From contig NZ_RCNR01000006.1 in the NCBI RefSeq assembly GCF_009725985.1, forward strand, positions 1 to 64,000: DNA of 64,000 nt, in the 5' to 3' direction. The notes beneath the pieces were generated by a model, which was not told where the DNA came from, made no database searches, and saw only the letters and a program-made list of their open reading frames with translations. Both the position numbers and the translations under genes were made by a program. This DNA comes from Zobellia amurskyensis (GTDB lineage: Bacteria > Bacteroidota > Bacteroidia > Flavobacteriales > Flavobacteriaceae). Of this stretch, positions 22,536 to 53,000 are shown in pieces; the stretch's first letter is position 1; each line of letters opens with the position of its first letter.

Positions 22536-22790
22536 ACCGTTCATCGGACATACCTAGCCACTTGTGTTTTTCACAACAAGCTGAGTTGCCTACACAACAA
22601 TAATTTAGGAGGTTGAATAAACCAGCGTAAGTTTACAGTGTAATTAAGTGATAGTAATGACCCCAAATCGAATCTTGAACTTGACCGAAATAAGTAACGA
22701 ACCCCAAACCCGTTACTTAATCAGAAAAAAATAATACCAAATTGACCAAACCTACTTGATAAAAAAACCCTCTATATAAGAGGGTTTTTT
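22536..22790 (+). repeat. Dispersed element, copy 1 of a three-copy tandem array; candidate small-RNA unit
   Basis: Order of parts: ACCGTTCAT (22536) and GCCACTTGT (22557) 21 bp apart; CACAACA boxes at 22572-22578 and 22593-22599, again 21 bp apart; a -7-like TAATTTAG at 22601-22608; a leader shared with copies 2 and 4 (AGTGTAATTAAGTGATAG, then GACCCCAAATCG); and a terminator at 22761-22790. The predicted transcript is about 175 nt. Copies 1 and 2 are exactly 300 bp apart. The spacer between the CACAACA boxes differs between copies while the boxes and distances stay fixed, which indicates binding sites. A 25-codon frame from ATG 22657 is present but is not preserved between copies. Confidence 0.75.
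22761..22790 (+). terminator. Intrinsic terminator of element copy 1
   Basis: Stem CCCTCT (22768-22773) pairs with AGAGGG (22779-22784) around a 5-nt loop; it is preceded by an A-run and followed by six T. The A/T flanks can extend the stem and make it work on both strands. Confidence 0.85.
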
Positions 22791-22835
22791 ATTGCTTTCT
22801 ATTTTTTATAATCTTCTTAGCTTAGCTCCTTCTAT

Positions 22836-23112
22836 ACCGTTCATCGGACTTATTTAACCACTTGTGTTTTTCACAACAGACTTTGATAAGTTCACAACAA
22901 TAATTTAGTGGGTTGAACAAACCAGCGTAAATTTACAGTGTAATTAAGTGATAGCAATGACCCCAAATCGAATCTTGAACTTAACCGACACAAGTGCGAA
23001 TCCCAAATCCGAACTTGACCTACGAAAAGCTTAAAATATTGTGACCCCAAATCGCAATTAAATTTTATAAGTAAACCTACTTAACAAAAAAGCCGTTCAG
23101 ACGGGCTTTTTT
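22836..23112 (+). repeat. Dispersed element, copy 2; candidate small-RNA unit
   Basis: Same order as copy 1: ACCGTTCAT at 22836 and ACCACTTGT at 22857 (21 bp apart), CACAACA at 22872-22878 and 22893-22899 (21 bp apart), TAATTTAG at 22901-22908, the shared leader with GACCCCAAATCG, then TCCCAAATCCG and a second CCCCAAATCG at 23044-23053, ending in its own terminator. Predicted transcript about 200 nt. Sequence identity to copy 1 is high up to about 22990, then falls away. Confidence 0.75.
23086..23112 (+). terminator. Intrinsic terminator of element copy 2
   Basis: AGCCGT (23091-23096) pairs with ACGGGCT (23100-23106; wording of ends approximate by one base) with a one-base bulge, flanked by an A-run and a T-run of six. 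The stem is unrelated to that of copy 1. Confidence 0.8.
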
Positions 23113-23150
23113 GTTTTACAATACCAAATTACTAGAACAAATGATTTGAA

Positions 23151-23383
23151 GTGTATTTCATCGAAGCTATGTTCATTTTAACGAGCTACACCACAAATTA
23201 AGATGGGTTCACAACAAAAATTTAGCAATTATAGAGTTGCCATCTACATTCGTCTTGTATTTGAAATTTAGTGTACGTCCCAAATAAATTACTTAACCGA
23301 GGTTTGATTTATTGACTGTACAACCAAACTTAACTAATCCTACTTAACAAAAAAAACGCCCCGATTTTCATCGGGGCGTTTTC
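23151..23383 (+). repeat. Dispersed element, copy 3 (diverged); candidate small-RNA unit
   Basis: TTCATCG box at 23157-23163, CACCACA at 23189-23195 and CACAACA at 23210-23216 (21 bp apart), AAATTTAG at 23218-23225 in the -7 position, then a diverged leader that keeps TCCCAAATAAA and repeated ACTTAAC blocks and ends in CCTACTTAACAAAAAA plus a terminator. The distance from TTCATCG to the first box is 32 bp, the same as in copies 1 and 2. The GACCCCAAATCG block is missing. Confidence 0.65.
23349..23383. terminator. Strong bidirectional terminator: element copy 3 and the DUF3078 gene
   Basis: A perfect 10-bp stem, AACGCCCCGA at 23355-23364 and its complement at 23371-23380, loop TTTTCA. An A-run precedes it on the plus strand and a short T-run follows. 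It lies 23 bp from the end of the minus-strand DUF3078 gene and probably ends that transcript too. Confidence 0.85.
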
Positions 23384-42033: not shown

Positions 42034-42067
42034 AAAAAAAAGGGCCCCGAATCGGGGCCCTTTTTTT
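42034..42067. terminator. Strong bidirectional terminator: BNR gene (plus) and element copy 4 (minus)
   Basis: GGGCCCCGA (42042-42050) mirrors TCGGGGCCC (42052-42060), flanked by A-run and T-run, so it can act in both directions. It ends the BNR gene transcript and forms the 3' end of the inverted element copy. Confidence 0.88.
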
Positions 42068-42303
42068 AAGTAGGTTTTTTTGATTTTCCGGTGGGGACCG
42101 GTATTTCTTGTAAGCTTCTGTAGGTTAAGTAGCGGACTTGGGATTCGTTACTTGTTTCGGTTAAGTTCTAGGGCGATTTGGGGTCATTACTATCACTTAA
42201 TTACACTGTAAACTTACTGCTGTTTTCTCTTCTGTCTAAAATATTGTTGTGAACCCACCCAACTCTGTTGTGAAAAATACAAGAGACTCATTTCATCGAT
42301 AAA
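42034..42303 (-). repeat. Dispersed element, copy 4 (inverted); candidate small-RNA unit
   Basis: Read on the minus strand: TTTATCG box starting at 42303, CACAACA at 42272-42266 and again at 42251-42245 (21 bp apart), TATTTTAG at 42243-42236 in the -7 position, the leader AGTGTAATTAAGTGATAG, then GACCCCAAATCG, ACCGAAACAAGTAACGAA, TCCCAAGTCCG, CCTACTTAA, and the terminator. Transcript about 195 nt. Relative to copy 1 there is a one-base deletion just after GACCCCAAATCG, so the short reading frame of copy 1 is broken here. Confidence 0.75.
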
Positions 42304-52660: not shown

Positions 52661-52694
52661 AAAAAAAAGCGGCCTTTGGGAGAACCACTTTCTT
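52661..52694 (-). terminator. Terminator of element copy 5
   Basis: On the minus strand AAGTGG (about 52691-52686) pairs with CCGCTT (about 52673-52668, one G-T pair), followed by a T-run of eight. It closes a small transcription unit in the 373-bp gap. Confidence 0.7.
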
Positions 52695-52718: not shown

Positions 52719-52820
52719 TTACAGCATAAATAACTTTCTGGTCAGCATTACGATTCCGCTGAAAAAATCATTTTTGTACACTTGAATTTCTTCGGTTGTT
52801 TGGTTAATTTGGGCTTCCAT
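52719..52820 (-). CDS. Possible micropeptide (33 aa) inside element copy 5
   Basis: ATG 52820 to TAA 52719 encodes 33 residues beginning MEAQINQTTEEIQV and ending RKLFML, with a hydrophobic FFSGIVML stretch. It is the last frame before the terminator. It could be a toxin-like or leader peptide, or chance. I do not recognise a family. Confidence 0.3.
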   Translation of the reverse strand: MEAQINQTTEEIQVYKNDFFSGIVMLTRKLFML

Positions 52821-53000
52821 AGGTTGTAGTTTTGGGTAAAATCGGATTTGGGATGCGACTTTCGATTAATAACACTATAAAAATAGTACCTAACCGTCTA
52901 CCAAAAAAAATCTTGTTGTGAAGTAGCAATAATCTGTTGTAAAGGAGCATATCAGCAATTTTCCTACAAAAATTTCCGCAAAATTGCCTTATGATTTTAC

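Follow-up and report, generated by a model that had tools for sequence, protein, structure and literature searches.

Tandem repeat units of Zobellia amurskyensis as probable decoy RNA genes that counter a short RNA predicted to repress a small peptide

The three tandem repeat units at positions 22540-23383 of the window, by which we mean the whole 64,000-nucleotide stretch of Zobellia amurskyensis DNA analyzed here (contig NZ_RCNR01000006.1, positions 1 to 64,000), are probably genes for decoy (sponge) RNAs that counter a short RNA which, in turn, would repress a peptide. As far as comparison of sequences can carry it, the case consists of modules in the putative long RNAs, their complementarity to the short RNA, their conservation, and the co-occurrence of the components (Table 1).

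As proposed in an earlier note on this DNA, each of the three units carries a CACAACA-N14-CACAACA box pair, a -7 box, and a terminator of its own. The box starts are indeed 21 bp apart in units 1, 2 and 3 (22572/22593, 22872/22893, and 23189/23210, respectively), the second box stands 8 bp ahead of the -7 box (TAATTTAG in units 1 and 2, AAATTTAG in unit 3), the offset between units 1 and 2 is exactly 300 bp, and every unit ends in a different perfect stem followed by a T-run. The further claim that the boxes and their spacing are kept while the spacer varies is borne out by 71 non-redundant promoters, in which only the GTT before box 2 is strongly conserved within the N14. Units 1 and 2 have 84% identity over a length of 176 nt; unit 3, the first box of which is CACCACA rather than CACAACA, belongs to a different sub-type that has in common with the other units the boxes and the 3' element CCTACTTAA. 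Of the two genes that flank the array, one encodes GTP-binding GTPase domains (by content, it is HflX-type), and the other is convergent and encodes a DUF3078 protein.

Further copies, on which the earlier proposal depended, exist elsewhere in the same genome and in relatives. Allowing up to 3 mismatches, the composite promoter pattern has 4 matches in the window, with 0.01 expected, the fourth of which (unit 4) was absent from the earlier note; across the whole genome, the pattern is found in 6 places, and its reversed control in 0. A BLASTN search of this genome with unit 2 returns 4 long matches: units 1 and 2, the copy near 42.2 kb, and a further one located on contig C70. With 4-6 BLASTN matches per genome in the genus, shared boxes and individual terminators, the units appear to constitute a multicopy small-RNA family behind one promoter type, so that this part of the functional reading stands; the complementarity to a second conserved RNA and the wider promoter family had been missed. 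Flavo-1, which the earlier note had named for comparison, occurs in Flavobacteria, and neither it nor any other Rfam family matches the window at the gathering score; the earlier note, too, could not match the units to a named family. The sub-threshold matches fall mostly on terminators and were rejected.

Table 1. Features of the repeat units and of the peptide gene in the window
Feature	Positions	Strand	Remarks
Unit 1 upstream 21-bp direct repeat TTCATCGG...CTTGTGTT	22540..22568	+	
Unit 1 CACAACA-N14-CACAACA and -7 box TAATTTAG	22572..22608	+	
Unit 1 predicted decoy RNA, +1 to terminator T-run	22613..22790	+	duplex with short RNA -36.8, z -5.1
Unit 1 site A CCCCAAATC...GAACTTGACC	22661..22686	+	complementary to short RNA
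Unit 1 hairpin, CCCCAAAC in loop	22690..22721	+	
Unit 1 site D AACCTACTTGA	22749..22759	+	ahead of terminator
Unit 1 intrinsic terminator	22762..22790	+	
Unit 2 upstream direct repeat TTCATCGG...CTTGTGTT	22840..22868	+	
Unit 2 CACAACA boxes and -7 box	22872..22908	+	
Unit 2 predicted decoy RNA, three CCCCAAA-type sites, 3' site AACCTACTTAA	22913..23115	+	duplex -43.0, z -6.0
Unit 2 site A CCCCAAATC-N-GAACTTAACC	22961..22986	+	
Unit 2 site B TCCCAAATC..GAACTTGACCTAC	23001..23023	+	loop of hairpin 2
Unit 2 site C CCCCAAATC	23045..23053	+	
Unit 2 intrinsic terminator	23083..23115	+	
Unit 3 CACCACA-N14-CACAACA and AAATTTAG	23189..23225	+	
Unit 3 predicted shorter RNA, second sub-type	23230..23383	+	pairing not above shuffles, -25.3, z -1.2
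Unit 4 CACAACA boxes and -7 box TATTTTAG	42236..42272	-	
Unit 4 predicted decoy RNA	42034..42231	-	duplex -36.9, z -3.5
Peptide-mRNA gene, CACAACA-type promoter through terminator	52941-52661	-	found by promoter model
CACAACA-type promoter of peptide mRNA	52905..52941	-	
ORF, conserved 33-aa peptide MEAQINQTTEEIQVYKNDFFSGIVMLTRKLFML	52719..52820	-	
Peptide leader and start codon	52812..52854	-	predicted short-RNA target; -27.4, z -3.1
Peptide-mRNA terminator	52661..52692	-	

The predicted transcribed part of a unit measures 155-210 nt and contains the modules CCCCAAA(TC), ACTTAACC and CCTACTTAA, which are complementary to a second RNA of ~75 nt. In the alignment of the long RNAs, the invariant columns of the body fall in the CCCAA, ACTT and CTAC of these complementary modules, as well as in a 5' block, and the length of the body varies through insertions and deletions between modules. 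The modules shift from copy to copy, and RNAalifold found no consensus structure for the whole alignment, so a per-motif hairpin test was used in its place: the second CCCAA motif lies in a hairpin loop the stem arms of which change together (a mean of 6.4 pairs vs 3.6 for shuffled flanks, n=70), the third shows a smaller excess (5.5 vs 4.0, n=24), and the first shows none (5.3 vs 5.0, n=86). The conserved 5' block, TTTACAGTGTAATTAAGTGATAG (22632-22654 of the window and equivalent positions), is unrelated to the short RNA and contains several stop triplets. When its complement was sought in the same genome with up to 3 mismatches, the only matches were the four long copies themselves, so that no second antisense RNA was found there. 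TTTACAGTGTAATTAAGTGATAG, with the palindrome TTACANTGTAA, is common to the decoys, to another small-RNA class described below and, loosely, to the peptide leader, and may be an operator just after the transcription start.

The short RNA came to light through a weak BLASTN side match on contig C49 of the same genome, where four tandem copies of CCATAGCATAAGTAGGTTAAGTTCATGGTAAGATTTGGGG are found, each with a -7-like box before it and a terminator after it; the fourth copy differs from the searched pattern by two changes. The complement of this RNA holds CCCCAAATC-N6-TGAACTTAACC, that is, the composite site of the long RNA with the same spacing. It is predicted to fold into a 5' hairpin followed by an open tail, UAAGAUUUGGGG, and Rfam yields no match in four short-RNA loci. 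Judged by its copies, the RNA is nearly invariant in most of the genera of the family that were searched: BLASTN at E < 1e-13 recovers it in 20 of 29 family genera and in 0 of 19 genera of other families, where the weaker matches cover the terminator only. A pattern for its complement, which also matches the decoys, is present in 159 of the 199 genomes of the family, compared with 12 matches for the reversed control; among the matches listed, most read as the short RNA's own complement and at least 12 do not. The query fixes 24 nt of each copy; among 164 copies, which come from 78 named loci, 110 continue with AGATTTGGG and 52 with GATTTGGG, and 126 have a -7 box that begins 19 nt upstream. 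The available text of PMC9723704 places the flavobacterial -7 box at -12 to -5, and with this placement the transcription start of the short RNA would fall on the first base of the ACCAT hairpin.

The surroundings of the short RNA are conserved as well. At 81 loci in other genomes, a 630-aa protein with glutamine amidotransferase domains (purF by content) is encoded upstream of the array in 66, and an Fe/Mn superoxide dismutase downstream in 61; in Z. amurskyensis, where the end of contig C49 closely follows the array, the purF side alone is visible. Among 20 named genomes, those with the CACAACA promoter family have 2-6 short-RNA copies vs 1-3 in those without it, a clade-confounded count of exact-pattern copies in loci of up to 8 kb. 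Palindromes of the form TTTCATCGAT(G)AA adjoin short-RNA arrays (L019, 1594-1620; upstream of several arrays), and on the minus strand of L086 (genome G022), at about 1475-1560, there is a divergent short RNA in which ACCATA...TATGGTAGATTTGGGG and the terminator are kept and the loop is different.

Comparative evidence lends good support to base pairing between the putative long RNAs and the short RNA. Across 58 unique long RNAs, the best duplex has a median energy of -36.9 kcal/mol vs -23.9 for dinucleotide shuffles and -22.8 for the reversed short RNA, 41 of the 58 have z < -3, and folding unit 2 jointly with the short RNA brings a gain of 25 kcal/mol. Not among the 41 are unit 3 and its orthologues (10 of the 58), where the best z is -2.8 and most values are near those of shuffles. 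Extended complementarity at the accessible parts of the short RNA, as would be expected of a sponge, is a property of these 41 long RNAs and is absent from the unit 3 type. In genera not used in building the model, the modules recur with different linkers; 36 of 38 model matches there were scored, only 13 of which have z < -3, and the 36 include 5 that represent another RNA class and 2 more without marked modules. Substitutions at the pairing sites (58 transitions keep the pairing vs 7 that break it, and most of the 76 transversions break it) were not used as a test, the sites being A/C-rich and the copies related.

The same promoter model led to a gene for a small peptide within the window. 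A text pattern recovered such an ORF in 12 of the 15 places examined; the peptide has 33-45 aa and matches nothing in Pfam or NCBIfam. Summed over the pairs of 6 orthologues, most changes are in third positions (199 of 307 differences), and 139 codon differences are synonymous vs 96 that are non-synonymous. Flavobacterial mRNAs are described in the available text of PMC9723704 as largely devoid of Shine-Dalgarno sequences. Many of the peptide leaders contain modules related to those of the long RNAs and end in CT-ATGG, which matches CCATAG at the 5' end of the short RNA. In the first set of 12 leaders, the best duplex with the short RNA covers the start codon in all 12, with a median z of -3.5 vs -0.8 for the coding control, although three of the coding controls reach z -2.0 to -2.7; the reversed short RNA yields -15.2 to -25.2 on these leaders and comes close to the real one in L372 (-25.2 vs -25.8). 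In a wider set, the ORF is present in 27 of 30 loci, and the leaders have z < -2 in 18 of the 27 and z < -3 in 14, the first 12 being counted again among them; of the 15 new leaders, only 6 have z < -2, one represents a wrong ORF, and several leaders of the clade do not pair. With a profile at E <= 1e-7, the peptide is detected in 31 genomes, all within the 33 that have the promoter family, and in 0 of the 166 others; the cut-offs were set after the lists had been seen, and the co-occurrence is partly circular because the promoter model also matches the peptide gene's own promoter. 

The common promoter type and leader modules raise the question of whether the long RNAs are themselves small peptide mRNAs, like the sister gene at 52941-52661, such that the pairing would amount only to their own repression by the short RNA. 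We give this idea hardly any credence, given that no ORF of 60 aa or more exists within the repeat units, that several stop triplets interrupt the 5' block, and that insertions and deletions between the modules make the body vary in length.

Below the cut-off, the peptide profile has 21 weaker rows, at E 9e-5 to 0.08, 10 of which were taken for examination. Four of these are small ORFs with a like C-terminus, LTKK[LV]FM[LF] (L410, L414, L417 and L421), and all four come from genera without the promoter family at the cut-off; the other six, L411, L412, L413, L415, L416 and L420, were examined and dropped. The start regions of the four hold long complements of the short RNA, for example, CCAAATCTACCATGAAC, some of which lie within the coding part; in L410, the complement encodes N-L-P-E-P-T. 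Against the consensus short RNA minus one A, a form that is present in three of the four genomes, these mRNAs reach z -5.6 to -8.0, a level attained by 0 of 200 shuffles, and against the other form z -3.5 to -6.1, the downstream controls lying between -1.7 and +1.1. The fourth genome (L417) has its own divergent short RNA with a changed loop, predicted to pair with the leader and start codon (z -3.3, 1 of 200 shuffles as good); a within-clade paralogue, L418, reaches about z -2. A separate observation concerns L412 (G207 C101:1-600), where a degenerate peptide-like stretch without a start codon, perhaps a decayed copy, lies beside CACAAC-like boxes.

The predicted long RNAs, unlike the short RNA, are confined to one clade (Zobellia-Maribacter). 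BLASTN detects them in 12 of 60 relatives, namely, all 9 genomes of the genus, that of Z. amurskyensis included, and 3 of 28 other family genera, and the same three-unit array occupies the same position in 8 of 8 other genus genomes examined. A sequence-only model of the promoter and first site (R1) matches 52 of 199 family genomes at E <= 0.01 and 33 at E <= 1e-6; many of these matches are to the promoter part alone, so that the count reflects the CACAACA promoter family and not the decoys alone. All 20 named genomes have the short RNA. In 8 of these (Maribacter, Zobellia, Arenibacter, Eudoraea, Robiginitalea, Flagellimonas, Pricia and Cellulophaga) the best R1 match has E <= 2.4e-6, that in Arenibacter and Cellulophaga being promoter-only, and in the remaining 12 (two Flavobacterium, Aquimarina, Algibacter, Salinimicrobium, Salegentibacter, Aequorivita, Hanstruepera, Winogradskyella, Mangrovimonas, Tamlana and Ulvibacter) no R1 match is better than 0.0027. 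The sequences are related, and all counts across copies and genomes are, accordingly, non-independent.

Two alternatives were weighed. The fixed position of the array, along with the fixed spacing of the -7 box, the differing terminator stems, and the conservation of the body largely on the modules complementary to the short RNA, is hard to reconcile with the view that the repeats are dispersed DNA of a selfish or structural kind, or serve as sites for the titration of a transcription factor, with incidental transcripts; although the repeats are intergenic, their DNA boxes are strongly conserved and they carry the small palindrome TTACANTGTAA, we regard such an origin as highly improbable. A more serious contender, yet still an unlikely one, reverses the roles: the long RNAs would be the actual regulators, acting on mRNAs through C-rich loops in the manner of LhrC, and the short RNA their restraining antagonist. 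The long RNAs are multicopy, with C-rich loops and a conserved 5' block unrelated to the short RNA, complementarity by itself has no direction, and in some members of the clade no pairing of the peptide leaders with the short RNA is predicted. However, the short RNA occurs without the long RNAs in the 12 named genomes that lack a clear model match, it is predicted to pair with the mRNAs of divergent peptides in four genera that lack the promoter family, and the modules of the long RNAs resemble the peptide leader, all of which speaks against this reversal.

Other candidates for pairing with the short RNA were sought. Conserved 12-nt sites, TTRACCTACTTA, occur in the 9 genus genomes outside the short-RNA arrays at about the level of the reversed control. 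Five such loci were read (L280, L276, L271, L277 and L272): the sites of L280 and L276 fall within the same coding gene, apparently one for a response regulator, that of L271 seemingly lies in a coding gene, and that of L272 corresponds to the leader of a gene for a reg_prop-type regulator on C18, with moderate predicted pairing in this genome (z -2.7, 1 of 200 shuffles as good). In the two genomes of L280 and L276, TTGACCTACTTA stands near position 1500 in the LytTR-type response-regulator-like gene, some 48 kb ahead of the decoy array; its occurrence in that gene may be due to chance.

Several other putative transcription units were noticed behind promoters of the CACAACA type. In L332 (1458-3780; G000 C37), a CACAACG-N14-CACAACA promoter precedes a PAS histidine kinase gene and a response-regulator-like gene, possibly members of the same regulon, and in L334 (from 3498; G000 C23), a promoter of this type with 3 mismatches precedes a gene for a large secreted-looking protein. 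A second small-RNA class consists of the core TTTTTCATTTTCATATAGTGTTCTC and a terminator, with loci in G000 at C1:73493 (+), C2:165915 (-), C25:17678 (+) and C37:15726 (+) (L338, L343, L348 and L353) and in other genera (L328-L330, L336). The C23 and C37 genes and this class do not pair with the short RNA, and a search of 5 genomes with up to 3 mismatches revealed no antisense partner of the class, the TTTTCAT of which might base-pair with ATGAAAA starts. Direct TTYATC repeats, 20-21 bp apart, lie upstream of both RNA classes, and a common regulator is, therefore, possible; the repeats may be half-sites of the kind in LytTR-regulated promoters, where GTTYRT-type direct repeats stand about 21 bp apart, and the TTCATCGG...CTTGTGTT repeat of unit 1 has LytTR-like half-sites.

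For the preferred reading of the units as decoy genes, we infer transcription, the direction of control, the inducing signal and the role of the peptide along the following lines. Each unit would be transcribed from its CACAACA-type promoter and ended by its own terminator, and the resulting decoy RNA would display the modules CCCCAAAUC, ACUUAACC and CCUACUUAA, some of them in hairpin loops, for pairing with the open tail GAUUUGGGG and the hairpin loop GUAGGUUAAG of the short RNA. The short RNA, in turn, would pair with the leader and start codon of the mRNA for the 33-45 aa peptide, most likely blocking translation. When the regulator acting at the CACAACA boxes is active, the peptide mRNA and the decoys would be made together, and the decoys, as mimics of the mRNA leader, would take the short RNA out of action, such that the peptide is made. 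In the Zobellia-Maribacter clade, then, one promoter type would drive both the peptide gene and RNAs that carry the modules of its leader minus the ORF. A broader scenario, which we put forward as a possibility that we are more inclined to doubt than to assert, is that a multicopy trans-antisense RNA guards the start of a micropeptide, perhaps a growth-inhibiting one, throughout the family, and that one clade added co-induced decoys that copy the leader, producing a three-layer switch.

Post-transcriptional control in Bacteroidota is poorly known, and a near-invariant, family-wide small RNA with a candidate target and putative dedicated decoys offers a ready test system. If the scenario is correct, it shows decoys arising by the copying of a target leader and multiplying alongside the RNA that they trap. 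We found no description of the long RNA, the short RNA or the three-part circuit in open-licence PMC text; PMC7366714, in its available part, mentions sponges in general only.

Type I toxin-antitoxin systems combine a very small peptide ORF with an antisense-type RNA that covers its start. The predicted pairing of the short RNA with the translation start of the peptide is of the same kind, and the likeness lies in this pairing; unlike the members of type I pairs, the short RNA is encoded in trans, on contig C49 with the peptide on C6, has several copies, and would be joined by decoys. Among the small RNAs of Flavobacterium psychrophilum, Rfp18, with at least three stem-loops and protease targets, is, according to the available text of PMC9723704, independently transcribed and conserved in Flavobacterium, like the putative short RNA, which, as far as a comparison by description goes, may be identical with one of the Rfp RNAs. 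The long RNAs share with the LhrC RNAs of Listeria the occurrence in several copies and the C-rich motifs, which in LhrC lie in a stem-loop, in a single-stranded stretch and near the terminator (available text of PMC8383071), and here in loops of RNAs behind one promoter type; LhrC binds ribosome-binding sites of mRNAs (same source), whereas here the C-rich loops match a GGGG-bearing small RNA. There is no sequence relation to LhrC, as Rfam gives nothing at the gathering score. The chb-ChiX, SroC-GcvB and ChiZ sponge examples are enterobacterial, and the present case comes from Flavobacteriaceae. In the systems of chb-ChiX, SroC-GcvB and the 5'UTR-derived ChiZ, as portrayed in the available text of PMC8383071, an RNA sequesters a small RNA by pairing and frees its mRNA targets, and the decoy can resemble the target, as we propose for Zobellia. 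The putative Zobellia decoys differ from these sponges in being dedicated, independently encoded and multicopy, with several sites each, in having a multicopy small RNA as their opponent, and in having a promoter motif in common with the target mRNA.
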